Translations under genes and position numbers: made by a program
Assembly (NCBI RefSeq): GCF_020832325.1
Contig: NZ_JAFIEU010000047.1
Span: 62,001 to 126,000, forward strand
Direction: 5' to 3'
DNA from: Lunatimonas sp.
GTDB taxonomy: Bacteria > Bacteroidota > Bacteroidia > Cytophagales > Cyclobacteriaceae
Length of the DNA stretch: 64,000 nt
Shown here: piece by piece, positions 5,283 through 36,796 of the stretch
Layout of the letters: each line of letters opens with the position of its first letter
Numbering within the stretch: the stretch's first letter is position 1
Notes under the pieces: generated by a model
The model's input: only the letters and a program-made list of their open reading frames with translations
The model's database searches: none
What the model was told of the DNA's origin: nothing

Positions 5283-8200
5283 TTAGAAACTAACCTTTAT
5301 ATTTACACCAATCTCTCTGGTTCTAGGAAGCATCACACCTGCAAAATTCTGGTTATTGCTATTCGGGTCAAATCCCTGTTCTGGGTCAAAATGATCAGAA
5401 TTCCTATATAGAATTGCGAGATTTCTGGCTACTAGCGATATTTGAGCCGAATTTAAGCCCAATGCTTGAACCGCACTTGGTGCGAAGTTATAGTTGAGAA
5501 TTAGGTTCCTCAGTTTTACAAAGCTTCCGTCAATCATAAAGTTCTCTGCATACTGACCATCGTTATTATAATAAGTCGACATAAAGCTAGCAGGCCATGT
5601 TTGAGTAAATTCATCCCCATTCTCATTAACACCAGAATATGTAAGCCCGTTTTCTCTACCCGGTAGGGTTTCCTTAAGCAGCCCAAAACGCCACATATAT
5701 TGTTTGTTTTGAGAAAAGAAGTGATTCCCAAATTTTCCATCCAATAGGATATTTAAGGAGACCCTTTTATACGAAAATGTATTTTCAAAACCCATGGTAT
5801 ATGGAGGAACTCCGACGCCAAGTGCTTGAATTGGACCCAACATCGCATAACGACTTCGGCTATTGTAAACTTTCACCCCTTCCTCGTTATACATGTAGCT
5901 TCTTCCAAAGCGGGTACTCAAATCCTTGCCCAACAAGCTGCTGGCACCGGTCGCTTGACCTTCGGCTAGCGTAATTACTCTATTTTCATTGTAACCGAGG
6001 TTATAACTGGTATTCCATGTAAAATCACCTGACCTAACGGGTACACCAGTAATTAGGAGTTCAATTCCTCTGTTTCTGATTTTGCCAACATTTAATAGAA
6101 TAGAAGTAGCCCCAGATGAAGGAGCGATTCCTGTAGGGACAATATCATCGGTGTTCATCCTACGATAGTAGGTAAGGTCAATGCCCAACCTGCCTTCTAA
6201 AAAATTTGCATCCAACCCTACTTCAAATGTTGTCGAAGTTAACGGACGCAAATCAGGGTTTGAAATCGCTGTGGACGAAGTCTGTACAGGTACTCCCATA
6301 TGCCCCCCTTGCCGAAATCCAAACAGTTGGTTTATGGCATAAGGAGCTACGGTGGCACTACCGACCTCTGCCCAAGAACTGCGAAATTTGGCAAACTCAA
6401 TACCTCGCGGCATTTTAAACAAGCTGGATAAAATAACATTTCCTCCTATGGATGGATAGAAAATCCGGTTATTACCCGTACTTAACGTAGAAAACCAGTC
6501 TTGTCTAGCAGTTAAGCTCAAATAGATTGCCTCTTTGTAATTAAAGTCTGTCGATGCAAAAAGAGAATTAGTGCCAGACCGTACCAATGCCTTATCTGGG
6601 ACCAAGATAGCCAAATTAGCATGGCTGATCCAATCAGGAATAATGAATTCCGATCCAATCAGTGAGGTCGAAAATGCGTTGTCTCTCTCTAGATTAGCAC
6701 CGCCCATAGCGGCAAAATTAAAATGCTCCAAAAAATCCGTGCTATAATTAGCAATCACCCTGGCGTTCGTCCTGGATTGCTCATCACTAACGGATCTGTA
6801 TGTACCTAGAGGTCGAAATGCAGTTCCTTTTGGGTAATAATCTTCTCCATTCCAGCTACTGAAATCTCTCATGAAGTCGGCTTTTAAGAAAAGATTTGGG
6901 AGAATATCATAAGTCAAGGCAGCCTGTGAAATTACACGGTTCCTATAATCGGAATTTCTCATTCTATCTCGCGCAAAGTATGGGTTCGTTGCCTGGTTCA
7001 CGTGTTGCCATTCAGTTTCCTGACCGGTTTCTGGATCATATCCAGGAGCAAGACTCCTTACATCTACCGTATTTGCCAAAAGATAAACGCCCCATGCTGA
7101 ATTCGTACCAACATATCCTACACCGGGACGGTTTACTCCCGATTCGTAGTTGTATTGAATTTGGGTGTCGAAGCTCAGTTTATCACTTAAAAATGTCTTT
7201 AAATTTAGGTTAGCGGTTTGCCTACTAAAGCTCGATCCATGCACAATGGCCTGAGAACGAAGATCAGACATAGAAAAGCGGTAAATAACCCCTTCATTAC
7301 CACCCGAAATTGCTACCGTATTTACCAAATTGGTACTAGATCGATAGAAATTCTTGATGTTATCTTTTACGTAAACAGGTGAATACGGTCGCATGACTCC
7401 ATCAAATTGAACATAGGGCTGTCCGTCCATCCGCTCTCCAAAAGATAACCGCCCTGTACTTATGGCTTGTCCTTGGTTTTGGGGCCGAACCCCTAAACTC
7501 CCCTGACCGTATTCGTATTGATAATCCGGGAAAATATTGATGGTTCCGACCGTCAGGTTGGTATTGATCTCAACCCCCATACCCTTTTTTCCGCGTGTAC
7601 CTTGTTTTGTGGTAATCAAAATAACTCCGTTTGCGGCCTGGCTTCCGTAAAGTGCAGCGGCAGCACCACCCTTTAACACAGAAATGGACTCAATATCATC
7701 CGGATTAATACTTTGAATTCCGTCCCCCAAATCAGTGGTTGCCCCATCTGCCTGATCCAAAATGGTAGTTGGATTATTTGAAATAGGCATACCGTTTACA
7801 ACGTACAGTGGTTGGTTATTACCGTTCAATGAACCGTTTCCGCGAATTACTACACGACTAGAACTACCTGGACCACTTGCCATACTTGTAGCATTCACTC
7901 CAGCAATTTTTCCGGTTAAGGCATTTGCAATGTTGGTTTCTCTTGCCTGAGTGAACTCCTCACCTCTAACTTCGGTCACTGAATAAACCAATGACTCCTT
8001 TTTTCTTTCTAATCCGAAGGCGGTTACGACTACTTCACCCAAAGCCTGAGATTCATCGTCCAAAGTGATTATAAACGAAGTTTGACTTCCTACAACTACT
8101 TCTTTGGTTGCGTACCCGATAAACGAGACTACTAAAACCGCCCCTTCAGACACATCTAGGACAAAACTGCCAGATAGATCCGTAACGGTCCCGGTAGTTG

Positions 8201-8693
8201 TTCCTTTTACCAATACTGACGCACCGGGAATGGGCTCGCCATTTCCGTCTTGAATAATACCTGATACCTGAGGCGCTGATTCACTAGTTAAATCATTTCC
8301 CCCTGACTCAGTAACTTGCTTTGAACTTGATACCGATGAGTTTGTAGTAACGTAAATTGTATTATTTACGCGTTTAAACTCGAAACCCGCCGTCTCTGAA
8401 AGATATTCCAATACTTCCCTTAGGTTGCTATTCGCAAAATCTAAGCTGAACGACTTTCTTACACTCGAAATACTCTGATTGTAGGTGAAACGGAAGGATG
8501 TTTTCTGTTCTATTTGATCTAGTACCTCTTTAAATGACCTCGCCTCAACTTTAATGTTGATTGCAACATCCTCTAGGTTTTGGCTGTTAGAAGGCGTTGC
8601 AGTTAATAGTTGCATTGCCATTATTTGAACAAAGAAGGCATAGAAGAGCCTTTTTGATGCCATGATCAATAGTTTTAGTAGATTAATTTTCAT
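5283..8693 (-). CDS. SusC/RagA TonB-dependent outer-membrane transporter with STN domain
   Basis: This 1136-residue protein imports ligand through the outer membrane using TonB energy. Domains in order: signal peptide (1-38); STN signalling domain (about 45-115, starting near VAINIKVEARSFKEV); carboxypeptidase-regulatory-like beta sandwich (about 142-222, GIIQDGNGEPIPGASV); TonB-dependent plug (from about 228, with the usual LNGNNQPLYVVNG and ISVLKGGAAAALYG segments); and the barrel to the C-terminal aromatic residue (VSF). The STN domain is the part that contacts FecR in trans-envelope signalling, matching the fecR and ECF genes immediately upstream. A 117-bp gap with a strong hairpin separates it from fecR. 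Confidence 0.95.
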   Translation of the reverse strand: MKINLLKLLIMASKRLFYAFFVQIMAMQLLTATPSNSQNLEDVAINIKVEARSFKEVLDQIEQKTSFRFTYNQSISSVRKSFSLDFANSNLREVLEYLSETAGFEFKRVNNTIYVTTNSSVSSSKQVTESGGNDLTSESAPQVSGIIQDGNGEPIPGASVLVKGTTTGTVTDLSGSFVLDVSEGAVLVVSFIGYATKEVVVGSQTSFIITLDDESQALGEVVVTAFGLERKKESLVYSVTEVRGEEFTQARETNIANALTGKIAGVNATSMASGPGSSSRVVIRGNGSLNGNNQPLYVVNGMPISNNPTTILDQADGATTDLGDGIQSINPDDIESISVLKGGAAAALYGSQAANGVILITTKQGTRGKKGMGVEINTNLTVGTINIFPDYQYEYGQGSLGVRPQNQGQAISTGRLSFGERMDGQPYVQFDGVMRPYSPVYVKDNIKNFYRSSTNLVNTVAISGGNEGVIYRFSMSDLRSQAIVHGSSFSRQTANLNLKTFLSDKLSFDTQIQYNYESGVNRPGVGYVGTNSAWGVYLLANTVDVRSLAPGYDPETGQETEWQHVNQATNPYFARDRMRNSDYRNRVISQAALTYDILPNLFLKADFMRDFSSWNGEDYYPKGTAFRPLGTYRSVSDEQSRTNARVIANYSTDFLEHFNFAAMGGANLERDNAFSTSLIGSEFIIPDWISHANLAILVPDKALVRSGTNSLFASTDFNYKEAIYLSLTARQDWFSTLSTGNNRIFYPSIGGNVILSSLFKMPRGIEFAKFRSSWAEVGSATVAPYAINQLFGFRQGGHMGVPVQTSSTAISNPDLRPLTSTTFEVGLDANFLEGRLGIDLTYYRRMNTDDIVPTGIAPSSGATSILLNVGKIRNRGIELLITGVPVRSGDFTWNTSYNLGYNENRVITLAEGQATGASSLLGKDLSTRFGRSYMYNEEGVKVYNSRSRYAMLGPIQALGVGVPPYTMGFENTFSYKRVSLNILLDGKFGNHFFSQNKQYMWRFGLLKETLPGRENGLTYSGVNENGDEFTQTWPASFMSTYYNNDGQYAENFMIDGSFVKLRNLILNYNFAPSAVQALGLNSAQISLVARNLAILYRNSDHFDPEQGFDPNSNNQNFAGVMLPRTREIGVNIKVSF

Positions 8694-8788
8694 AATTTTG
8701 TTTGCTTTAATCTTCTTAGTGAAGTAGATAATTAATTGGATTCAGGCGTTGATCCAGAGCTGTTGCCGCAGACTCTGGATCTTTTTTT
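8693..8788 (+). ncRNA. Candidate antisense RNA opposite the susC leader
   Basis: On the plus strand an exact TAnnTTTG-type -7 box (TAATTTTG, 8693-8700) lies just outside the susC start codon, with only a weak TTTT at the -33 position. About 50 bases further on is a perfect hairpin (8751-8781) followed by seven T. Together they could produce an RNA of about 80 nt, complementary to the 5' leader of susC. Antisense RNAs at this position are known for polysaccharide-utilisation loci of Bacteroides. No expression evidence is available here, so this is a prediction from two short signals only. Confidence 0.3.
8751..8788 (+). terminator. Rho-independent terminator-like hairpin, plus strand, between fecR and susC
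   Basis: GATCCAGAGCTG pairs with CAG-A-CTCTGGATC (12 bp with one bulged A) around the loop TTGCCG, and seven T follow at 8782-8788 on the plus strand. Both flanking genes are on the minus strand, where the hairpin is preceded by an A run and has no T run after it. It therefore ends plus-strand transcription rather than the fecR message, although it could also act as a leader structure in the susC mRNA. Confidence 0.6.
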
Positions 8789-8810
8789 AGACGTTATATT
8801 TTCATAGGCA

Positions 8811-9767
8811 TTACTGTTTACATTGTTGGATCGTTAATGTGATTGTTTTGGTAGAAACATCTGTCTCGTAGGTAAAATCTAAGATATTCGTTAGTCCTTT
8901 CATGATCGTTTCAATCCTCTCCCCCTCGTACTTCCCGGTTATTTGACAATTTATATGTTTGGAACCACTGCCAAAGTTTATCGTCACTCCGTAGGCCCGT
9001 TCCAATACACGAAAGACTTCCAGAACCGGAAGTTCGTTGAATTGCAGCTTCCTAGTATGCCATCCGATGACAAATGCAGGGTTTACTTCACGCACAGCTA
9101 TTTCTTCATTACCAATTACAGCTTGTTGACCTGGGGACAAAACAACATGCTCTTTTAACAGCGTATCTGCGACCTTAACGGACCCGGAAGCCACAGTTAT
9201 TTCAGGGATTTGAAATGTGTTGATATTAAAGGTGGTTCCAAGTACAGTTACTTCTGTATTATCTGAAATCACCTTGAAAGGTCTTTCCTTATTGGAAACC
9301 ACATCAAAGTAGGCCTCCCCGTATAGCCTAACCACTCGTTCATTAGAAGCAAACACCTCCGGAAATTCCAACCTGCTATTTTCGTTCAACCGAACAACAC
9401 TTCCATCACTCAATGAAATCGTGGACCTCATTCCAATTTCGGTTTTTTTGGTCACCCAATTCGGTTCGTCCGAATTTGACAGGAGATTTAAATAAATAAA
9501 ATAAGAAACTCCAACAGTCAGAATAAAAGAGGCTGCAAATTTCAACGAACCAATGAAAAGACGACGATTTCTCATTCTGGCTTTATTTCTCGAATAAATT
9601 TCAGCTAAGACCTTACTTTTCGCCTGCTCGATATACGAAGGATCTGGCTCTTCGCCGCGCTTTTCGAACTCAGCTAATAATTGTTCGAAGGCTTCCTTGT
9701 CTAAAGAGTCTTCCTTGGCAGATAGAAATCGTTTTGCTAATTCAAAAATATGTTGACTTTTCATCAA
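8811..9767 (-). CDS. FecR-family anti-sigma factor
   Basis: The protein has 318 residues. Residues 1-80 form the cytoplasmic sigma-binding region, residues about 86-108 a single transmembrane helix, then comes the periplasmic FecR domain (from about 130, with STISLSDGSVVRLNENSRL and GEAYFDV) and a C-terminal DUF4974/STN-like domain (about 240-315). Proteins of this type hold the ECF sigma factor until the SusC STN domain reports ligand. The gene sits 76 bp after the sigma gene and upstream of susC, the usual Bacteroidota order. Confidence 0.93.
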   Translation of the reverse strand: MMKSQHIFELAKRFLSAKEDSLDKEAFEQLLAEFEKRGEEPDPSYIEQAKSKVLAEIYSRNKARMRNRRLFIGSLKFAASFILTVGVSYFIYLNLLSNSDEPNWVTKKTEIGMRSTISLSDGSVVRLNENSRLEFPEVFASNERVVRLYGEAYFDVVSNKERPFKVISDNTEVTVLGTTFNINTFQIPEITVASGSVKVADTLLKEHVVLSPGQQAVIGNEEIAVREVNPAFVIGWHTRKLQFNELPVLEVFRVLERAYGVTINFGSGSKHINCQITGKYEGERIETIMKGLTNILDFTYETDVSTKTITLTIQQCKQ

Positions 9768-21165: not shown

Positions 21166-24057
21166 CTATTGGACAAACAACACCTGCGATTTTCCCAACA
21201 GACCTGCACGCAGCAAGGGGGTATTTTTGGTAAATCGAGGCTTGGCATTTGTCCGGGTAAAAGGAGTTTGCTCGGGGTTTCTCAAGTCCCCAACAATGCG
21301 GTTGTTCCAGGTATTTACCGCCTTTACCGTAAGGGTATTATCCCCTTCCCTGAGGTGGGGTGTGATGCGGGCTACGAAAGGTGGCAACCACACGATACCA
21401 CAGTCAACACCATTTACAAACACCTGCGCCATCTCCTGAATGTCCTCAAACTGCACGTAGACCTCCATACCAGACTCCAACTGACTGCTTTCCAGTGTCA
21501 AATCCCGCGTATAAGTAGCCGTACCGGAATAGTACTTCGCTCCCTCCTCTTCCATTTCCGACCAGCTGATAAGCTTGTCTAACTTTGCTGCACTGGGGCC
21601 ACCCATCGTACTGTCAAATGAAAGCGTCCAGTCCGTGGAAATATCGACTACCCTTGCAGGTTTAATATCGGATGAATTTCCGGAAAACCCAAACTGCAAG
21701 TCGTGGTGCAGCCTTTTATCGTTCTTGCCAGAGCTCATAGGCCGAAAAACGACAAAGCGAGAAGCAATGGGCTCCAGTACAAAGTCTATTTGTATCCCGT
21801 TGGCTACCTTGGTGTAGGCTACCTTCCGTTGAACCAGCCCTGACTCGGCATCCCAAATCTCCGGTTCCATGTCAGTGTCTACCCGAAAAACCAAGCTCAC
21901 CCTCTCCTGCCGCTCACTGCTGTTGGAAATGAAGTAGATCTCCTCCGAATCGGTACGTCTGTGCACGAAATCTATATGCCTGTCCTTGTTGTCGACACCC
22001 TTCACCTCTACATCCGGCCCCACACCCAACTCCTTCAGGACTTCCTGTATGGATCTTCCCCAGTATACGGCTCCTTTTCCGTAGGTATGCGAAAAGACGG
22101 TTTTGCCATCACAATCTCCCCAGATCTTAGCTGCCAACTCCTTTATCTCCTGATCAACCGCAGGGTATCCTTTCAGGGACGTGGACCGCGTAGGCTTCCG
22201 TCCCAGCACCACGGCTCCTTCGGCTATCAACTGCTCCAATTTTTTCAGCACCGCAAGGGATATATCCTCCCTATCCGGCAACACCAACAGTCTGTAGGAG
22301 GATCCGTGAGGCAACATTAGTCTGCCATCCTGTGCTTCCAGCCTCGTGGTGATTACCTCTTCGTTTACGTAGTCGTACTCGTACCCAGGCAGCTCCCCTG
22401 TAATAATGGGTCTGTCCATACCACAATGCGGGCACTTGGTTTCATCGTAAAAATAGGAAGGAAAGAGTCCCGGCATATCCGGTGTATAGTTGGGATCCAT
22501 GCGCTTGGGCGGTACCAGGTTGGGCGCATCGTCCCCGTAATAAAGCAGCACATCTGCCACAAAATTACCCTGCCGCAATAAGTAGGAAGCACGTGCGATA
22601 TAGTCCATAAAAGGACGGGAGTATTCCCACCAAGTGGCGTTTACATTGATATGCTCGCCTGCATGGTAGACAAATCCTGGCTTCCCGGCGATCTCCGGAT
22701 TATGGGAAAAGGTATGAAAAACCACCTGGTTTAACCCTTCACAAAAAGCCACATCCACCAACTGCTTAAAATCGGTGGGCCCATGCTGCCAATGATTCCA
22801 CCCGGTGAGGGACTCGGAAGCCACAACCTGCTTCCCGTAGATGTGGGCCGCACTGGCAGCTTCCTTGGTGACCCAATGCCGCTGCCGGTTCCAAAATTCA
22901 CCCATCGGCATGTGAGAGCTTCCCAGTGCCTTTAAGGGTTCCACCCGGGGGTGACCGCCATGGCCGGCTTCGGTGATCATTTGGATGCCGTGTTTATCGC
23001 CAATCTCCACCGCTTGGGCGTAGTGATTTTCAATCAACAGGTCACTTACCAAGCGCCTGTAATCTCCCTCAAACCGCTTCTGAATAGTGAGATCCTTTAC
23101 CTGATATCCCTGTAAGATCGGCAGAAATGGAAGAGGATCGTAACCGTAGCGGTTTTCAAACTCCTTGATGAAAACAGGAGTCCAGTCCACCATCTCCCAC
23201 ACCTCATAGCTGTCTAAAAAGATAAATTTCAATTGCTTCTCGGCCGTACTGATTTGATCCAATCGGGAGATCATCTCACCAAGATGCCGGTCCGTTGCTT
23301 GTTGGCTCAAATGATCAATGATCAAACCCGATGAATTTGGGCTGGGCACCACCAAGGGCTGCATCGTATTGCAGGTGAAAAAGGATAGGACTTTCCATTG
23401 CCCCTCGGGCACCTCCCAGTCCAAGACATTTCCGGCAGTAACCTTGTCCTTCAAGTCAATGATATCTGTAGGTTCATAGGACTTGTCTTGTGTTTGGGGA
23501 ATAGCCAATACCGTGATTAATTCACAATGCTCGGCCATTCCCCTGGGTGATTCAGGATTTTGCAATGTTCGCTGAATACGAGCTGGACCTTCCGTCAACA
23601 AGTTGCTGTGTAGCAATTCCTTGCTTCCGTCTTCCAGCGGCGTCCAATCTCCTCCGGAATTCCAGCTACTTGCTGCACTGATCCCCAAATCCAGCCCCAA
23701 CTCGTGACTGGTATCCAAGGCCAGGGACAGGTAGCGAAGCGATTCAGTACCTAAAAAGGACGGCCCGGCGGGAATCATGCCGTCCGGATTGATCAACGCA
23801 CCCAGATCCCAGACAATGGCCCCCCGCATCCCCTTTTCCTTCATCTGTTCCAGCTCATATACCAACTTCACGGTATCTATGTACCCGTTCATCCAAGTCC
23901 AAAGGGCCATGGGACGGTTTTCGGTTGAAGGGTTCAAAAACTCCTCCTCTGAGAGCATTGAAGCTAGTTCGTGGTCATTTTTGGCCGGGCTGCATGCGGC
24001 TAAGTATAGAAAAAATAGCCCTAAGACTACAGCAAAAAACTGAGTTGCTGACGGCAT
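21166..24057 (-). CDS. GH106-type alpha-L-rhamnosidase-like glycoside hydrolase, lipoprotein
   Basis: Start set at MPSATQFF (complement 24055-24057), giving a lipoprotein signal ending YLAAC; the open frame begins 10 codons earlier. The ~963-residue protein opens with RPMALWTWMNGY and KGMRGAIVWDLG, then a long TIM-barrel region with ASSWNSGGDWT, a linker and a C-terminal jelly roll with GMEVYVQFEDIQEMAQVFVNG and WNNRIVGD, as in GH2/GH106 proteins. GH106 enzymes release L-rhamnose from plant and algal glycans. Together with sulfatases and a GH29 fucosidase it points to a sulfated deoxy-sugar polysaccharide such as ulvan or a fucan. The specificity is inferred, not seen. Confidence 0.85.
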   Translation of the reverse strand: MPSATQFFAVVLGLFFLYLAACSPAKNDHELASMLSEEEFLNPSTENRPMALWTWMNGYIDTVKLVYELEQMKEKGMRGAIVWDLGALINPDGMIPAGPSFLGTESLRYLSLALDTSHELGLDLGISAASSWNSGGDWTPLEDGSKELLHSNLLTEGPARIQRTLQNPESPRGMAEHCELITVLAIPQTQDKSYEPTDIIDLKDKVTAGNVLDWEVPEGQWKVLSFFTCNTMQPLVVPSPNSSGLIIDHLSQQATDRHLGEMISRLDQISTAEKQLKFIFLDSYEVWEMVDWTPVFIKEFENRYGYDPLPFLPILQGYQVKDLTIQKRFEGDYRRLVSDLLIENHYAQAVEIGDKHGIQMITEAGHGGHPRVEPLKALGSSHMPMGEFWNRQRHWVTKEAASAAHIYGKQVVASESLTGWNHWQHGPTDFKQLVDVAFCEGLNQVVFHTFSHNPEIAGKPGFVYHAGEHINVNATWWEYSRPFMDYIARASYLLRQGNFVADVLLYYGDDAPNLVPPKRMDPNYTPDMPGLFPSYFYDETKCPHCGMDRPIITGELPGYEYDYVNEEVITTRLEAQDGRLMLPHGSSYRLLVLPDREDISLAVLKKLEQLIAEGAVVLGRKPTRSTSLKGYPAVDQEIKELAAKIWGDCDGKTVFSHTYGKGAVYWGRSIQEVLKELGVGPDVEVKGVDNKDRHIDFVHRRTDSEEIYFISNSSERQERVSLVFRVDTDMEPEIWDAESGLVQRKVAYTKVANGIQIDFVLEPIASRFVVFRPMSSGKNDKRLHHDLQFGFSGNSSDIKPARVVDISTDWTLSFDSTMGGPSAAKLDKLISWSEMEEEGAKYYSGTATYTRDLTLESSQLESGMEVYVQFEDIQEMAQVFVNGVDCGIVWLPPFVARITPHLREGDNTLTVKAVNTWNNRIVGDLRNPEQTPFTRTNAKPRFTKNTPLLRAGLLGKSQVLFVQ

Positions 24058-24242
24058 GATTCTACAAAAGGGTACATTTCTTCCCATACAAAGGTTTGAA
24101 GCAAACTGTATTTTACTAGGACTGGTAAAGGTAGCCCGAACGCCGTCCTTATGCTTCCATCATGTTAACGAAAAAGTGTAGTATTTTAACCCAATTGAAC
24201 GAGACGCAAACAACCCACTGCGCGGCACTCGAAGTACCTGCT

Positions 24243-26233: not shown

Positions 26234-27490
26234 TTAGAGCGGATTTTCCAACTTGCCCATAAAGAGTATGGCACCACTGTGCTTCTCCTGGATAAAAAAC
26301 ACGAAAGGCTTATCCAAAACCAATGTCGGCGGTGTACTGGGTGGTAAATTGACGCGTTCAATAACTTCTACAATGGTAGCTGCTGCGGCCTCGGTTCCTT
26401 TCTCGTCTACTTCAATCAGCGCCTCATGGATCACCCTACTGATTTTGAGCTGCTCGGTCGGGTTGGAAAAAAGCTTGGTGAAGTTATCCGGATGAAAACC
26501 AAATGGCTGCACCAAACCCAAGGCCATCAGATCATCTGCCATATTGGGGATTTTGTGGCTGAATTTGAATTTCGGCATTTTCAGGATCAAATTACCTTCC
26601 CTAGCCTGTTCCCTCCACTGTAGTAGGTTTTCCATGGTAAGTTTCTCCGCCAACGCCTCTGTGTTTCCATTCTCGCCGTAAAGAATACCCATCGTGAATT
26701 GCCCGGAACTGTAGGGAATCTCGATATAGCCATAGTCCGCTGTATTGAAAACTTTAAAGGCGGCCGGCTCACCCAAATCCATCATATCTACCACCACTTC
26801 CTGACCTGCCTTGGGAAAGAATTTTTCTTTTTTTGTATTCGCTCTGGGGAAGTTATAGGTCCAGTCTCCTTTAAAATAAATCGCGTTTACCAAATACATG
26901 ACCGCATTGGCAGGAATATGATCTAGCATGTCCTTAATCAGATTATTTGTCTGCTTCGCAATCCAATTATTGATGATATTGACAGAGTTCGGGTTAAGCA
27001 TATCTAAGGAAGCGATTTCCGCTTTGTAGTATTCCTGCGCTGTCTGCCTTAGCGGAGGCTGGACTTGGTACCCTTCCCGATACCAGATCGCATTGGCAAT
27101 CGCGAGCTTGACTTTTGGATCCAATTGCAAAAGAAAAGCCGTTAGGTCCCTAGCCGCCTGATTGGCTTCCTCCAAGGTAAGATGCTCTACTTCCAACAAA
27201 TTTTGAAATTGCTCCAAAACTGCGCCTTCGTTTCCGTTCATGGTCATAGAAAGTGCCTGATGTATGCTATAAGGACTAATAAACAGGTTTTTACCTGCAT
27301 TGTCTTTGATAATTTGTTCGAAAAGCTTCAGCGCAAACCTGGTATTTGCATCAGACAATTGCTGTTCCTTTATCGCTAGCTCCCTGATATTGGCAGTAAC
27401 AGGACCGACCAGCATATCTTCTTTCGGAACACAGGAAAATAGGCTATTACTAATAATTGCAATCAAAAGAAAAACGATGTAGCTCTTCAT
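26234..27490 (-). CDS. Serpin-family protease inhibitor, lipoprotein
   Basis: Start set at MKSYIVFLLI (complement 27488-27490), giving a lipoprotein signal ending LFSC; nine upstream codons are open but lack signal character. The ~418-residue body has serpin landmarks throughout, including NAIYFKGDW, the hinge GTEAAAAT, and the C-terminal PFVFFIQEKHSGAILFMG. The hinge is intact, so it should inhibit by inserting its loop into the sheet. Counting from the hinge Gly as P15 puts Arg at P1 (IER before VNLPP), which suggests trypsin-like targets. The stretch after P1 is about five residues longer than in human alpha-1-antitrypsin. Its likely role is protection of the cell surface against foreign or self proteases. 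Confidence 0.92.
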   Translation of the reverse strand: MKSYIVFLLIAIISNSLFSCVPKEDMLVGPVTANIRELAIKEQQLSDANTRFALKLFEQIIKDNAGKNLFISPYSIHQALSMTMNGNEGAVLEQFQNLLEVEHLTLEEANQAARDLTAFLLQLDPKVKLAIANAIWYREGYQVQPPLRQTAQEYYKAEIASLDMLNPNSVNIINNWIAKQTNNLIKDMLDHIPANAVMYLVNAIYFKGDWTYNFPRANTKKEKFFPKAGQEVVVDMMDLGEPAAFKVFNTADYGYIEIPYSSGQFTMGILYGENGNTEALAEKLTMENLLQWREQAREGNLILKMPKFKFSHKIPNMADDLMALGLVQPFGFHPDNFTKLFSNPTEQLKISRVIHEALIEVDEKGTEAAAATIVEVIERVNLPPSTPPTLVLDKPFVFFIQEKHSGAILFMGKLENPL

Positions 27491-27628
27491 AGTCATTTCA
27501 GTTAACGTGGAGGGCACTTCAAATGGATCCTACAAGGTTGCAGCGGAATGCCACCATATTGTTGGATTGAAGCAGTACTACAGTTAGGACGGAATCTTTG
27601 TTAAAAACGCTACAAGGACCACAAAAAT

Positions 27629-28655: not shown

Positions 28656-29762
28656 CTAATTTTTGGCAGAAATATCATCTCCCACTGCGGACATCGCCAG
28701 GTGGCGCCCTACCGCCGGAATGAGACGCAAGGCACCAAACAGCAGGGCATCGCTGAAAACGTTTTGACGAAGAAGAAGCTTTTGCAAAAAAACACCTTTG
28801 CGAATTCTGCTACGAAGGTACAGATTTACGTACTCGCCCTGAGCACGGTACAGTGATTCCCGGCTTCGTTTCCCCAACCAAGCTTCGGCCAATATCGGCG
28901 CTAGCTGTGCTCCGGAACGTAACGCCAGACTCATACCATTTCCGGTGATCGGGGGAATAAACCCGGATGCATCCCCCAATAACAATTGATCTTGGTATAC
29001 ACCTCCATAGGTGGAAAAGTGAAACTGAGACGTTGTCACCCGATCACCCAACAACTTCACTTCGGAGAAACGCTCCTTTAAATGGGGGTTTTGAAACAAA
29101 TGCATCCGCTCAAAGTCGTCCAAGTTGCCACCAAGAGCTTTTAATGGGGCCGCATTGGCTAGGTAACAAAGACAGTACTTTTCTCCCTCCACTTTGGAAA
29201 ACCCACAATACCCACCACGGAACACATGCATTTCAATGGTGTCAGATGGCGCAGCACTTGATACGTGATATTTGACGCCGACAAATGCTCCAGAACCCGT
29301 AGGTATCCGTATTCCGCTCAGTCGATTGCTTCTGCCATAGGCAGCTATCACAAACGAAGCCTGTACGGCTCCCGACCGAAGCGTATGCACCACATTCCCT
29401 TCAATCGCACGAACGGTTGTCCCAAATCGTATGTCTACTCCCTTCTCTTGAGCAATCTGGGCCAAACGATGGTCCATCGTCCATCGACTTAGGCCGAAAC
29501 CTCCTCGGGGAAGGGATAGGCGGGCTTGCCTTCCTCCCATTGAGGTAAGTACTAGTGTGTCAATATGTGGAAGTGACTGCGTTTCCACTCCAAGCCAATT
29601 GAGGTAAGATTCAGATTCCCGAGAAATATATTCTCCACACACCTTTTGCCTAGGAAACTGATCTTTTTCCAAAACTATCACTGGAACCCCCAGTCTAGCC
29701 AGCTCGATGGATAGGCTTAAACCAGCCAAACCTGCCCCTACAATGACCACCGGTTGCTTCAT
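28656..29762 (-). CDS. FAD-dependent oxidoreductase (geranylgeranyl reductase/monooxygenase type) of the polyketide operon
   Basis: Start set at MKQPVVIVGAG (complement 29760-29762), two bases after the methyltransferase stop, which places the FAD-binding GAGLAGLSLSIELARLG at the very N-terminus; an open extension of 16 codons lies inside the upstream gene. LEKD follows at the end of strand 2, and LLGDASGFIPPITGNGMSLAL is the second FAD contact near residue 275. The ~368-residue protein fits the geranylgeranyl-reductase/halogenase-like flavoprotein group. As last gene of a UbiA/type III PKS operon it probably hydroxylates or reduces the aromatic or prenyl part of the product. Confidence 0.85.
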   Translation of the reverse strand: MKQPVVIVGAGLAGLSLSIELARLGVPVIVLEKDQFPRQKVCGEYISRESESYLNWLGVETQSLPHIDTLVLTSMGGRQARLSLPRGGFGLSRWTMDHRLAQIAQEKGVDIRFGTTVRAIEGNVVHTLRSGAVQASFVIAAYGRSNRLSGIRIPTGSGAFVGVKYHVSSAAPSDTIEMHVFRGGYCGFSKVEGEKYCLCYLANAAPLKALGGNLDDFERMHLFQNPHLKERFSEVKLLGDRVTTSQFHFSTYGGVYQDQLLLGDASGFIPPITGNGMSLALRSGAQLAPILAEAWLGKRSRESLYRAQGEYVNLYLRSRIRKGVFLQKLLLRQNVFSDALLFGALRLIPAVGRHLAMSAVGDDISAKN

Positions 29763-29764
29763 AA

Positions 29765-30469
29765 CTATTGATTTTTTGGAATTACCAACAAATGCCGAAA
29801 CGCCCAGCACCAGCTAAGGGAATAGGTCGAAATACCTGCAGACCGAAGGTAATCCTGCCACTCAGATCTGGAAAACCCTCGAAGCACCGAAAGCGGGGCA
29901 TCGTGGCGGGTAAAATGAGAGCGCGAAAACCACCTCGTGAGTAAACGAATGCTGTGAAAAGCAAAGGGATGGCGATGCAAGTCATTGATCACTACCCCCA
30001 CTCGGGCATGCCGAAGGGCGCCCTGCAAAAATTCTACCACCGCCGAATCATCTAGGTGATGGCAAAACAAACTAGCCGAAACGATGTCTGTGCCATTTTC
30101 TTCTGCGAATACATGCCGGTAGTCTGAAATATTCCACGCAACCTTTGACTGTACATCAGGAAAAGCCTCCAAGGCGAAGGCCTGTGCCTCGGGCTGAATA
30201 TCCACCGCGGTAAACTCCACGGGAAACTCCCCAAATCGCCTGCTGAGGTAGTCAAACAAATCTCCGGCCCCCGACCCGATATCGGTAACATGCACCCGGC
30301 TGAGTCCTACAAGTCGAACGAGCTGGCTAACACCCTTGAAGGTAACCGATGCACCCCCCAAATACCGGTTGATCAGAACGATTTCTCTCAGGTTGGTATG
30401 AAAATCCTCCTTGCTCAGATAGGGAGCATCCATCAGTTCTTTTTCGTAAGAGCGGTGCTGGAAATTCAT
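29765..30469 (-). CDS. SAM-dependent methyltransferase of the polyketide operon
   Basis: The 234-residue class I methyltransferase has motif I at VTDIGSGAGDLFDYLS (near residue 60), an acidic residue after the next strand (FTAVDIQPEA) and later VSASLFCHHLDD. It overlaps the polyketide synthase gene by 4 bp (ATGA type junction) and is followed by the FAD enzyme after 2 bp, so the genes are translationally coupled. It probably methylates a hydroxyl or ring carbon of the resorcinol or pyrone made by the synthase; the target atom is not known. Confidence 0.87.
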   Translation of the reverse strand: MNFQHRSYEKELMDAPYLSKEDFHTNLREIVLINRYLGGASVTFKGVSQLVRLVGLSRVHVTDIGSGAGDLFDYLSRRFGEFPVEFTAVDIQPEAQAFALEAFPDVQSKVAWNISDYRHVFAEENGTDIVSASLFCHHLDDSAVVEFLQGALRHARVGVVINDLHRHPFAFHSIRLLTRWFSRSHFTRHDAPLSVLRGFSRSEWQDYLRSAGISTYSLSWCWAFRHLLVIPKNQ

Positions 30470-31563
30470 AAGCGCGAAAATAAACCACTCTCCACAGTGA
30501 GCCCTGGGCCAAAAGCTGCCGCGTAAATCGGCCCCTGTTTCGCGGGTCCGTATAAGATACGTTCCAGTACAAAAAGGATTGTGGCGGATGACATGTTGCC
30601 ATGTTCACGCATTACATCGAAGGATTTCTGAAGATCGGATACCTCACAGCCGATGGCGTCAGCAAATGCCATCAATATGTTTTTTCCCCCCGGATGAATG
30701 GCAAAACCAACGATATCATCGGGCGTCAACCCGCACTTGATCAGTAACTGCCGATAGGCTTCCCGCATGTGGGAGCCGATGTATTTCGGTACTGCGCTGC
30801 TTAGGATCATCTCAAAGCCCCTACTACCGATATGCCAACCCATGGCATCCTCTCCGTCTGAAATCAGAGTAGATGCGAACGCGTTCAAGTGTAACTGAGA
30901 ACCTTGATCCCTAGATCCTCTTTCTATCAGCGCTGCTGCGGCACCATCTGAGAATAGTACCGTAGACAACAGGTTGTCGTGTTCTTCACTATTTCGAAAA
31001 TGCAATGAACAGAGCTCCACACTAACAATCAATACCTTGCTACTGGGATTGGCTCGGCATATATAATCCGCTTGCTTCAAGGCATGAAAAACTGCATAAC
31101 AGCCCATGAAGTTGATTGCGCTTCGTTCTGACGATGCCGATAGGTGAAGTGCTCGGTATAGGGCAATTTCAAGACCTGGCGCCTGAACCCCCGTACAACT
31201 AACGGCAATAAGATGGGTGATCTGTTCGGGAACTACCCCTCTTCGTTTTAAGCACGTAGTAGCAGCGGCGGTTCCAAGTTCGGTAGCCAAAGGCAAAAAA
31301 TGGCCTAGGCGCTGGGCAGTGTCGGGGTCCTGGTAACCGGCACCATTCCACCGATAAAGCACGCCATTTCCATTAGAGGAAAAGTCATTGATAGCCATAT
31401 GCTTGACGGCTATTCCTGCATCTTTGGCGATAAACTGCAACTTTCGACGAGCAGCCGGAGAGTCGTGCGTTTGGCCCGCCCAAGCGACAAAATCACTCAG
31501 CGGATACCGGTTTTCCGGGATTGCCGTACCGATGGCGGTTATAGCGCTACTCATTGGCTCCAT
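30466..31563 (-). CDS. Type III polyketide synthase
   Basis: The 365-residue protein has the thiolase-fold triad of the chalcone/stilbene synthase superfamily: Cys155 in NFMGCYAVFHAL, His290 in FAIHPGGKN and Asn323 in HGNMSSAT. The length is typical for bacterial homodimeric type III enzymes, which extend an acyl-CoA starter with malonyl-CoA to make pyrones, resorcinols or acylphloroglucinols. It overlaps the UbiA gene by 13 bp and the methyltransferase gene by 4 bp, showing a tight operon. The starter unit cannot be read from the sequence. Confidence 0.93.
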   Translation of the reverse strand: MEPMSSAITAIGTAIPENRYPLSDFVAWAGQTHDSPAARRKLQFIAKDAGIAVKHMAINDFSSNGNGVLYRWNGAGYQDPDTAQRLGHFLPLATELGTAAATTCLKRRGVVPEQITHLIAVSCTGVQAPGLEIALYRALHLSASSERSAINFMGCYAVFHALKQADYICRANPSSKVLIVSVELCSLHFRNSEEHDNLLSTVLFSDGAAAALIERGSRDQGSQLHLNAFASTLISDGEDAMGWHIGSRGFEMILSSAVPKYIGSHMREAYRQLLIKCGLTPDDIVGFAIHPGGKNILMAFADAIGCEVSDLQKSFDVMREHGNMSSATILFVLERILYGPAKQGPIYAAAFGPGLTVESGLFSRL

Positions 31564-32426
31564 TTTTGGATGATTAATAGGGTGGTAAAAAAAACATTCA
31601 ATGTAATGGTTGAAATGACATTCATCCGCATCGTGTTATCGTAATTTGCAGCTCTCAGATCGCGGCTAATCAGCCTCATCCAATATAAGAAGAAAAAGAC
31701 GGTCGGAGTGGTAACCAAAAGAAAAAGCAACCCAACAAAGCTCGTTTCCCATCGTAAAAGAAAAATAAACGCAGTAAACAGTGCGAACAAGGATGCGGAA
31801 AATAGCAGTGTTCCTTTTTCCCCCAGCCTCATACTCAACGTGTTTACTCCATCCAGTCTATCTTGTTCATGCTGGTATATTTGCGTGATAGGGTAGCCCG
31901 CACCTATCATCACCGTTGCTGCCAGCGCACCCAAAAACGTATCGGTTCCAAGCTCGAAAAAGCTTTGCTGTGACGCTACCATGCTCGTGATAAAATAAAT
32001 AAGCCCACCTTGGAGAGATGCAACCAACGCAAAGCCTCCAAGGGGAAATCTCTTGATACGAATACCCCGGTAGCTATATGCGCGAGAAGCTAGAATATAG
32101 CTTCCGAGAAGCAGGAATACCTCCAATCCAAAAAACCATGCACTACTAACAAGTGCCAGGCTGTCCAAAAAAATGGTTACACCCGAGAGTGTAGTAGGAA
32201 TTGGGGGGGGATGTTTCAATCCGCCAATGCTGCCCGTGTCTCGATCTTGAATACTATTATACGCATTGCTAGACGGGTAAACCAGCAAATGAAGTAACAC
32301 AAACAGGATGGCCGTTTTCCAATGAAAAGGGTCTGCAGCTCGAGACATTGCAAATAGAAAAACAGGCAGCAGAAAAACTGAAAAGTGAAAACGAAGGTGT
32401 TGGATGCTGTATTGTATGGTCTTCAT
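31551..32426 (-). CDS. UbiA-family prenyltransferase
   Basis: The 291-residue membrane protein has about eight or nine hydrophobic helices. The two prenyl-diphosphate/Mg sites are NSIQDRDTG (near residue 57, with Ser instead of the second canonical Asp) and EQDRLDG (near residue 188). UbiA enzymes attach isoprenoid chains to aromatic rings in the membrane. As first gene of the operon with a type III polyketide synthase, methyltransferase and flavoprotein, it probably prenylates the polyketide aromatic ring. It may instead use a phytol- or farnesyl-type chain made elsewhere in the genome. Confidence 0.85.
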   Translation of the reverse strand: MKTIQYSIQHLRFHFSVFLLPVFLFAMSRAADPFHWKTAILFVLLHLLVYPSSNAYNSIQDRDTGSIGGLKHPPPIPTTLSGVTIFLDSLALVSSAWFFGLEVFLLLGSYILASRAYSYRGIRIKRFPLGGFALVASLQGGLIYFITSMVASQQSFFELGTDTFLGALAATVMIGAGYPITQIYQHEQDRLDGVNTLSMRLGEKGTLLFSASLFALFTAFIFLLRWETSFVGLLFLLVTTPTVFFFLYWMRLISRDLRAANYDNTMRMNVISTITLNVFFTTLLIIQKWSQ

Positions 32427-32887: not shown

Positions 32888-34960
32888 CTATTTAACCGTA
32901 ATCACACCGACCTCCGCAAAGCTTGCCGGATTTCCATCAAGCGTTTCAGTAGCTGAAAACCTGAAAAACCTCGCATCGGTGGGACTAAAGGAAACTCGCT
33001 GCAAGATGGGACTGTTGGCGATGTTCCCGAACTCCCCTTCAGCTACCTGTTGCCAAGAAACCCCATCCCGACTGACTTCAAACACAAAGGTTTTGATCAC
33101 ACCGGACATGTATCGGTTTTGTACCGGCATATACGTGAATCCGCTAAGGGGATAGGTACTTCCCATATCCACCATCAACCGATTCGAATCGGCTGTGTAG
33201 TTTGTCCGATCGTTTTCGTCAATTGCCTGGATGGCATTTTCACTGCCTCCCACCACCTTCCAATTTGCTTTGGGGATGTCCAGTGCAAACACCGCTACCT
33301 CGCTGGATTGCCCACTCTGAGGATCTAAGCTGACTACCCGCAGTTCACTTGGCTCTGATACCATAATGGGCTCTTGATACTTAAGGCTTTCGGCGGTGGG
33401 CTGACTTCCGTCCAGGGTATAGTAAATCACTACCTCGTCGTCAGGTGAGGAAAAACTCACAAGACCCGATTTTTCACGCTGCATTACGGGTTCAATCAAC
33501 AGCTTGGGTGCGTCAAAAAGGGCAAGGTTTGAAATCGTAGGGCTGGCCTTGGCATCCAACACGGTAAAACGTAACGCTTTGGTTTTTACCGAGGGCAATC
33601 TTAAAATACGCTTATACCCCACCGTGGTACCCCGCGCTACTTCTTGCCATTCGCCATCCACCTGCGCCTCCAGCACAAAGGCCTTCACCCGCTGGCCCAA
33701 AGGAATATACTCTTGTGCCATAAAGCGGTTGAAACTGATCTCTTCCTTAAACTCCAACGTGAGGGATCCAGAGACCTCCCCGTCAGGTGTGGACCAAAAA
33801 GTATCAGATTTCCCATCGATGGCTTTGCTTCCCGAATAGGATCTACCCCGATCAACCGACGTACTCACCAAGACCTGCTTACCGACGAGGTTATTGGCAA
33901 AGTCCTCGTTGATTTTAGCGGTTAATTTCTGAAGCTGCGCCACATCGTTTTCGTGGATCAGCCCTCGCTTATCCACCGGAAAATTCAACAACAAGGAGGC
34001 ATTGCGGCCAATACTGTTGTAGTAGATATCCAAAAGCTGTGGCAGGGTTTTGACTTTGTGGTCCTCGTATTCGTGGTAATACCATCCCGGCCGGATGGAT
34101 ACATCTGCTTCTGCCGGTACCCAGTGGGTGCCATTCTCCTGTCCTGGGGAATACATTTCGGAATACTCCGGCATCCCGCCGTAAACCGAATCCCGCATTA
34201 GATTGGACCAGGTAGTCTCGTAGGCAAAACCGTGTTCGTTGCCCACCCAGCGGACATCCGGTCCTGCATCTCCAAAAATCACGGCGTTTGGCTGCAGCTC
34301 GCGAATAATTTTAAAAGTGTTTTCCCAGTCGTAATAGGACTTCTTGTCAACCCTTCTCTCCTCATTGGCGCCGCCATAGTAGCCTGTGCCGCCATTTGCT
34401 CCGTCAAACCATACTTCAAATACCTCTCCATAGTTGGTCAGCAATTCCCGAAGCTGCTCCCGAAAAACGTCTATATATGCGGCCGTGCCATAATGCTCGT
34501 TATTCCGGTCCCAAGGAGACAGGTACACGCCAAACTTTAGGCCGGCTGCCCTGCAGGCCTCGGCAATCTCTTGGATGATATCACCCTTCCCTCCTTTGTA
34601 GGGAGAAGCCTTAATAGAATGCTCAGTGGTAGTGGTGGGCCAAAGACAGAACCCATCGTGGTGTTTTGCGGTGATGATGATACCTTTCATCCCCGCATCT
34701 TTAACCACACGTGCCCATTGCCCGGCATCAAACTCGGTAGGATTAAACAGGGACGGGTCCTCTGCACCGGTACCCCACTCCATGTTCGTAAATGTATTCA
34801 TGTTAAAATGCACAAACCCGTAATATTCCAGGTCCTGCCAAGCCAGTTGCCGTTCGGAAGGTATGGGATACACGGGTTCAGGAGCCGGTTGCCTATCACT
34901 ATTGCAGGAACTAAGTTGAAGGGCTAATAATGCAATCAAAGGTATGCGATACATGTTCAT
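32888..34960 (-). CDS. GH29 alpha-L-fucosidase with discoidin-type domains, lipoprotein
   Basis: The 690-residue lipoprotein (Cys19 in LSSC) has a GH29 TIM barrel at about 30-345 with TAKHHDGFCLWP and the likely nucleophile Asp186 in EVWFDGANGG. It is followed by an F5/8 type C domain (about 355-470), a chitobiase-C-terminal-like Ig domain (about 490-560, VVIYYTLDGSQPT) and a second discoidin-like domain (about 580-690). GH29 enzymes release L-fucose. With GH106 and five sulfatases nearby, the likely substrate is a sulfated fucose- or rhamnose-containing glycan. Its start is 237 bp from the divergent sulfatase gene, so both share the intervening promoter region. Confidence 0.92.
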   Translation of the reverse strand: MNMYRIPLIALLALQLSSCNSDRQPAPEPVYPIPSERQLAWQDLEYYGFVHFNMNTFTNMEWGTGAEDPSLFNPTEFDAGQWARVVKDAGMKGIIITAKHHDGFCLWPTTTTEHSIKASPYKGGKGDIIQEIAEACRAAGLKFGVYLSPWDRNNEHYGTAAYIDVFREQLRELLTNYGEVFEVWFDGANGGTGYYGGANEERRVDKKSYYDWENTFKIIRELQPNAVIFGDAGPDVRWVGNEHGFAYETTWSNLMRDSVYGGMPEYSEMYSPGQENGTHWVPAEADVSIRPGWYYHEYEDHKVKTLPQLLDIYYNSIGRNASLLLNFPVDKRGLIHENDVAQLQKLTAKINEDFANNLVGKQVLVSTSVDRGRSYSGSKAIDGKSDTFWSTPDGEVSGSLTLEFKEEISFNRFMAQEYIPLGQRVKAFVLEAQVDGEWQEVARGTTVGYKRILRLPSVKTKALRFTVLDAKASPTISNLALFDAPKLLIEPVMQREKSGLVSFSSPDDEVVIYYTLDGSQPTAESLKYQEPIMVSEPSELRVVSLDPQSGQSSEVAVFALDIPKANWKVVGGSENAIQAIDENDRTNYTADSNRLMVDMGSTYPLSGFTYMPVQNRYMSGVIKTFVFEVSRDGVSWQQVAEGEFGNIANSPILQRVSFSPTDARFFRFSATETLDGNPASFAEVGVITVK

Positions 34961-35197
34961 TTCATCCGTTAGGTTAACCGGGCTATAGTCTTAAAAGACG
35001 AATAGGCTGCATATCAAGTGCCTGCCAATCTTCTAAGGGATAACAACAGCCCTTTTTTTAAGGAAGTGAGGATTTGATAAACCAAATATAGGACTTGGAG
35101 TCCATTCTTAATGAAAAAATTACTTTTAAATATTTATTTGAATAGTCATTGGGATTGAATATTTTAGACAGTTACAAAAACAAGCAAAATCTTTTCC

Positions 35198-36796
35198 ATG
35201 AAGGCATCTCGTTATTTCTCTACAGCTGGCCTAACCCAGCTTGCTTTACATTCCTCCATTTTTCTGGCAATTGGTACGCTCTCGCTTTTTGGATGCGGGA
35301 AAGAGGAAGCATCCAAGCAGCCTCCCAAGCAACCCAATATCCTCTTTATTTTCACAGATGACCACGCTTTTCAGGCATTGAGTGCCTACCAGGACCGATT
35401 GGCCGAATTGGCCCCTACCCCCAACTTGGACCGCATAGCCCAACGAGGCATTCGGTTTGACAAATGCTACGTTACAAACTCCATCTGCGCACCCTCCCGT
35501 GCATCCATCCTAACCGGCGCACACAGCCATGTAAACGGACACCGTACCAACGCGGATACCTTTGACGGAACACAACCTACTTTTCCCAAGCTATTACGGC
35601 AAGAAGGATACGCCACAGCGCTTATCGGAAAGTGGCACCTTCGATCCGAACCCACGGGGTTTGACCACTGGGAAATCCTACCGGATCAGGGCCATTACTA
35701 CAACCCGACATTTATCGTTCCGGGGGATACGCTCATCGAAGAAGGTTATGTTACAGACATCATTACCGACAAATCCCTAGCCTGGCTAAAGCAACAAGAA
35801 AAATCGGGGAAACCCTTTATGCTGATGCTACAGCACAAAGCACCTCACCGGGAATGGGAAAAAGGGCCCGACCATTTAAGCCTTTACGAAGATGTGGTCT
35901 TCCCCGAGCCTCCCAACCTGTTCGACGATTACAGGACTAGGGGTACTGCCGCGAAAGAGCAGGATATGACCATTTCCGAAACCATGCAATTGGCGTCGGA
36001 CCTAAAAATCTGGACCGCAGAAACCATTGGATCCGGCCCGTACCGTCGCACCTACGGACGCATGAACCCTGAACAACGAGCCGCCTGGGATGCTGTGTAC
36101 AACCCCATCATCGAGGAGTTTCAGCAGGCAAACCTACAAGGTGATGACCTCGTAAGATGGAAATACCAGCGGTATATGCGTGACTACCTCGCCGTCATTC
36201 GCTCCGTAGACGACAACGTAGGGAGGGTATTAGACTACCTAGAGCAGTCCGGTTTGGATGAAAATACGCTGATTGTGTATGCCTCGGATCAGGGGTTTTA
36301 CCTTGGAGAACATGGTTGGTTTGACAAACGGTTTATGTACGAAGAATCCTTCCGAACCCCATTGCTGATGAGCTGGAAAGGAAAAATCACGCCAGGAACG
36401 GTCAATAAAGATCTGGTGTCCAACTTGGACTTCGCCCAAACCTTTCTAGAGGTAGCAGGAGTAGACGCACCGGATGTCATGCAAGGAAGAAGCTTGGTGC
36501 CCGTAATGTTAGGAAACACTCCAGCGGATTGGCGAAGTTACCTATACTACCATTACTACGAATTCCCCGGCGTACACAGCGTGCAGAAGCATGAGGGCGT
36601 CACCTCCCAGCGGTATAAGTTGATGCATTTCTACGAACTCGACGAATGGGAGTTTTATGACTTGGAAACGGACCCCCTAGAAATGAATAACCTATATGGC
36701 CAGGTGGAATATACAGAGCTCGTGGCATCGATGAAGGATCGCCTCAAGCGAATCAAGATCCAATACGGCGTCCTTACACCAAAAAGTAATTACTGA
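35198..36796 (+). CDS. Sulfatase, S1 family lipoprotein (plus-strand paralogue)
   Basis: The 532-residue protein has a long lipoprotein signal with Cys33 (LFGC). The Asp pair is in [14 protein letters not shown] and the formylglycine site is Cys97 in [26 protein letters not shown] and [14 protein letters not shown] match the minus-strand sulfatase at 17863-19452, so the two arose by duplication and probably take similar but distinct sulfated sugars. It is followed by the large PmoA/haem protein after about 100 bp, likely in the same transcript. Confidence 0.93.

Follow-up and report, generated by a model that had tools for sequence, protein, structure and literature searches.

The agqABCD cluster of Actinoplanes missouriensis was reportedly described by Awakawa et al. 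in 2011, and its agqB and agqC genes presumably provide the methyltransferase and oxidative functions. As presented in citing papers, this cluster, made up of the gene for the type III polyketide synthase (PKS) AgqA and of agqB-D, leads to alkyl-O-dihydrogeranyl-methoxyhydroquinones, with the alkylresorcinols made by AgqA being then prenylated and hydroxylated (PMC10896814); agqA-D are named as the gene set of the agq lipids (PMC7692728), and the membrane-bound prenyltransferase is stated to O-prenylate a small polyketide in vitro (PMC4044012). Here, a stretch of 64,000 nucleotides from the Bacteroidota member Lunatimonas sp. (contig NZ_JAFIEU010000047.1, positions 62,001 to 126,000; the window) was analyzed, which carries on its minus strand, in this order, genes for a UbiA-superfamily membrane protein, a type III PKS, a S-adenosylmethionine (SAM)-dependent methyltransferase, and a flavin adenine dinucleotide (FAD)-dependent oxidoreductase. 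In terms of gene content, this is a set of the agq type, in which a type III PKS is accompanied by methyltransferase, oxidative, and membrane-prenyltransferase genes. By analogy, the product of the operon would be an agq-like phenolic lipid of the membrane, namely a prenylated, methylated, and oxidized alkylresorcinol, a reading to which we give a probability of about 0.58. A methylated, oxidized, and prenylated product had already been proposed in an initial annotation made from the letters of the window, and the analogy with the agq cluster lends support to that proposal.

The first gene of the operon (31551-32426; all coordinates in the window are on the minus strand) encodes the UbiA-superfamily membrane protein of 291 amino acids (Pfam PF01040, 67.9 bits) and is followed by those for the type III PKS (30466-31563; 365 amino acids, or 362 from the second ATG; PF00195 and PF02797, with 91.3 bits for Chal_sti_synt_N and 63.2 bits for Chal_sti_synt_C), the SAM-dependent methyltransferase (29765-30469; 234 amino acids; PF13649, Methyltransf_25, 40.2 bits), and the FAD-dependent oxidoreductase (28656-29762 from an ATG, with an alternative GTG at 29810; 368 amino acids; PF01494, FAD_binding_3, 63.8 bits). 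The four genes are present where the initial annotation had placed them, and the junctions it had given were read again from the sequence: the UbiA stop and the PKS start overlap by 13 bp if the first PKS ATG is used, the PKS and methyltransferase genes overlap by 4 bp (ATGA), and 2 bp separate the methyltransferase gene from the FAD gene. A second in-frame ATG of the PKS (31554) would give a 4-bp ATGA overlap with the UbiA gene and agrees with the N-termini of the inspected relatives. None of the four proteins reached a curated NCBIfam cut-off among the matches listed (for the FAD protein, the best 25 of 121). The operon is not a chance grouping, because the same gene set recurs across Bacteroidota, and the earlier view of one functional unit is supported.

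The catalytic triad of the PKS, Cys155 (31099-31101), His290 (30694-30696), and Asn323 (30595-30597), is intact in the window, as had been noted before, and the Cys-His-Asn triad is complete in 149/149 PKSs compared (148 distinct). Trp243 (30835-30837), at an active-site position that holds Trp in 144/149 PKSs, is possibly equivalent to Trp281 of ArsB, which is described as steering cyclization to resorcinols (PMC6274091). This column does not separate the PKS clades, a clade paired with ICMT-type methyltransferases carrying Trp too. The closest solved relatives of the PKS are Steely1 (146.8 bits) and a PKS18-type enzyme (139.4 bits), and the nearest NCBIfam model is DpgA, at 145.6 bits far under its cut-off of 425. 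The assignment of the enzyme to the long-chain (resorcinol/pyrone) type is supported.

Relatives of the PKS were found at E 1e-20 in 177 of the 395 Bacteroidota genomes sampled, and two sets of loci (given here by L numbers) were compared. In the first, consisting of 80 loci picked from these matches by PKS similarity, a profile search placed UbiA beside the PKS in 15 loci, 7 of them with the same-strand UbiA-PKS-methyltransferase-FAD order of the window and 8 divergent, and none nearby in 65. The second set, 80 named loci chosen by UbiA as the best of at least 574 and uninformative on how often a PKS has a UbiA, has the PKS adjoining in 72/80 and all four genes in 63/80. The search for the four-gene order across Bacteroidota, as suggested in the initial annotation, shows that the gene set recurs in many genomes and is not peculiar to Lunatimonas; the operon is present in named strains, e.g. 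of Dyadobacter and Pinibacter species. Split genes were seen in two places, the PKS extending over two frames in a Niabella hibiscisoli locus (L126 7868-9036) and the methyltransferase being divided in a Sediminibacterium locus (L136 4328-5021), which reflects either decay or sequencing error. Another PKS clade has an ICMT-type methyltransferase gene after that of the PKS (a cluster of 11 loci, one of them checked by Pfam); these pairs, which we take to be BpsAB-like, have a type III PKS as in the window but form a separate PKS clade with no UbiA nearby. At a further locus (L106 3855-9569), PKS, methyltransferase, and FAD genes without UbiA lie beside those for a ketosynthase, an acyl carrier protein, a FabA-like dehydratase, and a phosphopantetheinyl transferase, a combination that looks as though it supplies the PKS with its own fatty starter; a ketosynthase of the same cluster also stands beside PKS-methyltransferase-FAD operons without UbiA in L091, L092, L102, and L103.

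The partnership between this UbiA and the PKS is strong. With a search profile built from 16 UbiA proteins, 26 genomes of the phylum sample had a UbiA above 340 bits, and a PKS is present in 26/26. In the window's own family, represented by 196 genomes of a larger group, 152 have both genes, 5 the PKS only (two of them weak matches), 1 the UbiA only, and 38 neither (Fisher P 7e-34, not corrected for kinship). In a FastTree tree of 149 PKS sequences, the UbiA-associated enzymes form one clade of 90 (support 0.86), in which 68 had been chosen by UbiA, and are associated by construction, and 22 by PKS, the window included. All 22 PKS-chosen members come from genomes with the UbiA, which is linked in 16 and elsewhere in the genome in 6, and this UbiA is in none of the stretches read around the 59 PKS-chosen sequences outside the clade. 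Eight UbiA loci have no nearby PKS, and in 7 of them the genome has a PKS elsewhere; the eighth (L158) is a metagenome-assembled genome labelled Syntrophaceae bacterium UBA7544, with no PKS match and a Bacteroidota-type UbiA on a contig that is perhaps misplaced.

A second UbiA subclade comprises 34 genomes at 120-159 bits and one fragment, all from one family (f24) and all with a PKS in the genome, and no PKS was found in the 16 stretches read around these UbiA genes. In this family, the PKS occurs in 84/92 genomes and the second-subclade UbiA in 73/92, and four genomes (G589, G608, G610, and G619) have the UbiA but no PKS match at E 1e-40; since the PKS is near-universal here, co-occurrence in f24 was dropped as evidence of partnership. 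The correlation of distances over 75 loci was also set aside as a sign of a special tie, because it is not higher for UbiA-PKS (r 0.76) than for PKS-methyltransferase (0.79) and reflects shared descent only. A gene of about 300 codons and of unknown function lies near the second-subclade UbiA, in opposite orientation, in 16/16 loci (L198-L213), with another open frame between the two in L205 and L213.

The UbiA protein of the window belongs to the UbiA superfamily (67.9 bits against a Pfam cut-off of 34.2), and its AlphaFold model (predicted local distance difference test score 94.8) best matches the dimethylallyl diphosphate-bound UbiA of A. fulgidus (AfUbiA; 4tq4, Z 22.6, root-mean-square deviation 3.7, 272 residues). 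What it shares with the superfamily (AfUbiA, ApUbiA, UBIAD1, and MenA) is the nine-helix fold and the first Mg/diphosphate site. AfUbiA is described as holding Mg2+ and diphosphate through N68, D72, D198, D202, R22, and K146, with Y139 being important (PMC4106721, whose numbering is used here), and, in an alignment with this protein, the window UbiA retains N57, D61, R12, K125, Y117, and D189. In the first motif, N57-S-I-Q-D61-R-D63 (32238-32258), the Asn and Asp equivalent to N68 and D72 are preserved, N57 and D61 being found in 114/114 and S58 in 112/114 ungapped distinct sequences; Arg12, Asn57, Asp61, Tyr117, and Lys125 are conserved in the subfamily. These counts were made on 115 distinct sequences, namely the first subclade with the Dyadobacter frames plus 16 of the second subclade. 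Two Asp-rich sites, with a Ser for one Asp in the first motif, had been claimed for this protein; the first site is indeed kept and Ser58 is real, but there are larger departures. The first motif has lost its third Asp, with Gly65 in the window protein and the Asp76-type residue of the superfamily kept in just 6/114 distinct sequences, and, in place of the second motif DxxxD (D198 and D202 in AfUbiA), the window protein has Q-H-x-x-D and its subfamily Q-x-x-x-D. In this non-canonical motif, Q182-I-Y-Q185-H-E-Q-D189 (31860-31883), Gln185 occupies the Asp198 position and is followed by Asp189, and Gln182, three residues ahead of Gln185, is equally invariant (Q182, Q185, and D189 in 115/115, H186 in 96 distinct sequences). 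Fold membership stands, but the canonical active site does not.

The methyltransferase scores 127.2 bits against NCBIfam PRK06202, under the cut-off of 243, and the FAD protein is nearest to GG-red-SF, the geranylgeranyl-reductase superfamily (100.7 bits, under the cut-off of 158.8). Matches to the model of the FAD protein start with flavin halogenases (PltA, Z 35.2), followed by aromatic hydroxylases at about 31-33 and the geranylgeranyl-reductase-like 3oz2 at Z 30.9, and are not decisive between a hydroxylase and a reductase. Three other loci, of which two belong to the sister PKS clade and one comes from Bacteroidales, have in the FAD slot aromatic monooxygenases of the PHBH/UbiH type, whose PF01494 scores (L060, 204.7; L063, 186.2; L125, 273.7 bits) are much higher than that of the window protein (63.8), and more loci of those groups score similarly low against the window FAD profile. 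The filling of one slot by different FAD subfamilies suggests ring hydroxylation, and the similarity to prenyl reductases would allow chain reduction, as needed for an agq-type dihydrogeranyl product.

Put together as an agq-like pathway, the PKS would elongate a fatty acyl starter by malonyl units and cyclize the chain to an alkylresorcinol or resorcylic acid, this product would be methylated by the methyltransferase, and the FAD enzyme would hydroxylate the ring to a hydroquinone or else reduce the prenyl chain; the core steps would follow those of known operons (PMC10896814, PMC9927152, PMC5916927, PMC8086630). The UbiA protein, in the membrane, would transfer an isoprenoid, either to a carbon of the ring or to a phenol oxygen, by means of a first Mg/diphosphate site that is intact and a second one that is rebuilt (Gln185 and Asp189), and the lipid may have a redox or protective role in the membrane. 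Several points weigh against this reading. Many PKS-methyltransferase-FAD operons among the PKS-chosen loci have no nearby UbiA, the FAD protein, being nearest to geranylgeranyl reductases, may reduce the prenyl chain rather than hydroxylate the ring, no product from Bacteroidota was found in the literature searched, and the likeness to agq draws on gene content and on descriptions in citing papers. In support of the partnership, UbiA and PKS lie in one open frame of 652-655 codons in 5 of 7 Dyadobacter loci (L166, L168, L172, L178, and L183, at about 6980-8960), in which UbiA spans 19-271 and the PKS 294-650 in L166, whereas L171 and L190 keep the UbiA stop. UbiA proteins are reported to have their C terminus outside the cell (PMC4106721), and a true fusion would, by this normal topology, place the PKS outside as well, which speaks against the agq-like reading. 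Translation may, however, restart at an in-frame TTG of the junction; because of this and of the wrong side on which the topology would put the PKS, the shared frame counts as coupling and not as a fusion enzyme. A carotenoid-like set, with genes named by eye as lycopene cyclase, carotene hydroxylase, isopentenyl diphosphate isomerase, and phytoene synthase and desaturase, adjoins the operon in six Dyadobacter loci (L166, at 10.7-11.5 kb, L168, L171, L178, L183, and L190).

The membership of the protein in the UbiA family would also agree with its being the menaquinone or heme enzyme of the organism, placed beside the PKS by accident, but this is extremely improbable, as the PKS partnership is phylum-wide and the 5.34-Mb Lunatimonas genome has separate genes for both functions. 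It harbors seven UbiA-family genes, and the six others include MenA (TIGR00751, 279.2 bits) and heme o synthase (TIGR01473, 260.9 bits), both over cut-off, as well as EboC and a PRK12872-type protein. The window protein itself reaches 17.4 bits against a menA cut-off of 102.15, and cyoE_ctaB (cut-off 210.3) is not listed for it at E 0.1. The initial annotation would have given up its proposal had the UbiA proved to be one of these two enzymes, and it is neither. In the genome of locus L005, an EboC UbiA-like gene reaches 417.6 bits (cut-off 250).

The Gln pair raises another issue. An invariant Gln at the Asp198-type position and a second Gln three residues ahead, in 115/115 distinct sequences from two subclades, could mean that this UbiA is no longer an ordinary prenyltransferase and moves another group from a diphosphate, or binds and presents the lipid product, so that an unprenylated alkylquinone would result. 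On the other hand, chlorophyll synthase, which is an accepted prenyltransferase, is also without Asp at the Gln185 column, where the alignment has Ser, though it does have an Asp three residues ahead, at the position of the first Gln. An enzyme with an altered second site may thus still be active. The D198A variant of AfUbiA is reported to bind 45-fold more weakly, an effect judged comparatively mild by its authors (PMC4106721). A phosphoribosyltransferase with the UbiA fold is on record (8j8j; PMC10994848), but the first-site residues are conserved in the present subfamily and the agq precedent pairs a type III PKS with a working membrane prenyltransferase, and we regard a loss of prenylation as rather improbable. 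It is unlikely, though deserving somewhat more weight, that the end product is a methylated and perhaps prenylated phenol or pyrone that serves as a structural or signaling molecule, and not a quinone or electron carrier. In favor of such a product, hidABC is reported to yield O-methylated alkylresorcinols (PMC8086630), and PMC10896814 describes the role of the FAD gene in Planctomycetota as unresolved, the natural function there as seemingly unlike that in other producers, and the function of the agq lipids as enigmatic; against it, the FAD slot of the three loci mentioned above holds PHBH/UbiH-type monooxygenases, as hydroquinone formation would need.

If the agq-like reading is true, the membranes of many Bacteroidota contain a second quinone or a phenolic lipid outside the reach of the standard surveys; in a survey of bacterial isoprenoid quinones from 2026, a word search found 'polyketide' absent from the main text (PMC13386864). 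With so few genes, found also in named strains, a direct hunt for the product is feasible, and the UbiA subfamily would probe to what extent these enzymes depend on their second metal site. More tentatively, and with the odds against it, one may propose that only type III PKSs serve as partners of a UbiA subfamily whose rebuilt active site probably holds a single metal, and that the two give rise in Bacteroidota to widespread isoprenoid-bearing polyketide hydroquinones that exist beside menaquinone and have been missed by quinone surveys.

As for the surroundings of the operon, an alpha/beta hydrolase gene lies downstream and an alpha-L-fucosidase gene upstream, neither of which is in any gene cluster common to at least 3 compared loci. 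A GH106 rhamnosidase, an alpha-L-fucosidase with F5/8 domains, and a sulfatase are distributed on both sides (21166-24087 and 32888-36796), which suggests a polysaccharide-degradation region, and a bacterial serpin (330.1 bits in Pfam) is encoded nearby (26234-27517). A Bacteroidota promoter pattern has 2 matches in the window against 2.47 expected and none upstream of the operon.

Compared with known systems, the operon resembles agq in its number of genes, its type III PKS, and a membrane-bound prenyltransferase, here a putative one, but agq comes from an actinomycete, and the prenyltransferases described together in PMC4044012 are said to have typical Asp-rich motifs, whereas the second motif of the window protein is altered. 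A locus of Micromonospora endolithica, that of loseolamycin, is described in a table of its cloned fragment as having a UbiA family prenyltransferase, a methyltransferase, an acyl-CoA dehydrogenase, and a type III PKS in a row; it differs in having the acyl-CoA dehydrogenase where the window has the FAD enzyme, and its reported products are alkylresorcinols (PMC7587189). Adjacent genes for a type III PKS, a methyltransferase, and an FAD oxidoreductase, as in the srs, pkq, and hid operons, are also found in the window. By their descriptions, the quinone operons srs of Streptomyces griseus and pkqABC of M. smegmatis bring together a PKS, a methyltransferase, and an FAD oxidoreductase or hydroxylase, but neither UbiA nor prenyl was found as a word in the two texts searched (PMC9927152, PMC5916927). 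The hidABC and Planctomycetota operons share the three-gene core, mostly in another gene order, and their PKS products are given as alkylresorcinols (PMC8086630, PMC10896814); one hierridin-like cluster of Raphidiopsis is said to include a prenyltransferase (PMC8086630). The label 'uncharacterised' given to the operon at the outset holds for Bacteroidota within the literature searched, but not for the kind of pathway, which is known from agq. No report of the Bacteroidota form or of the Gln-pair UbiA subfamily was found in that literature, in which subscription papers are thinly covered, and one may exist. Together, these comparisons place the operon in a kind of pathway that is already known, and what appears to be new is the Bacteroidota form and the Gln-pair UbiA subfamily.

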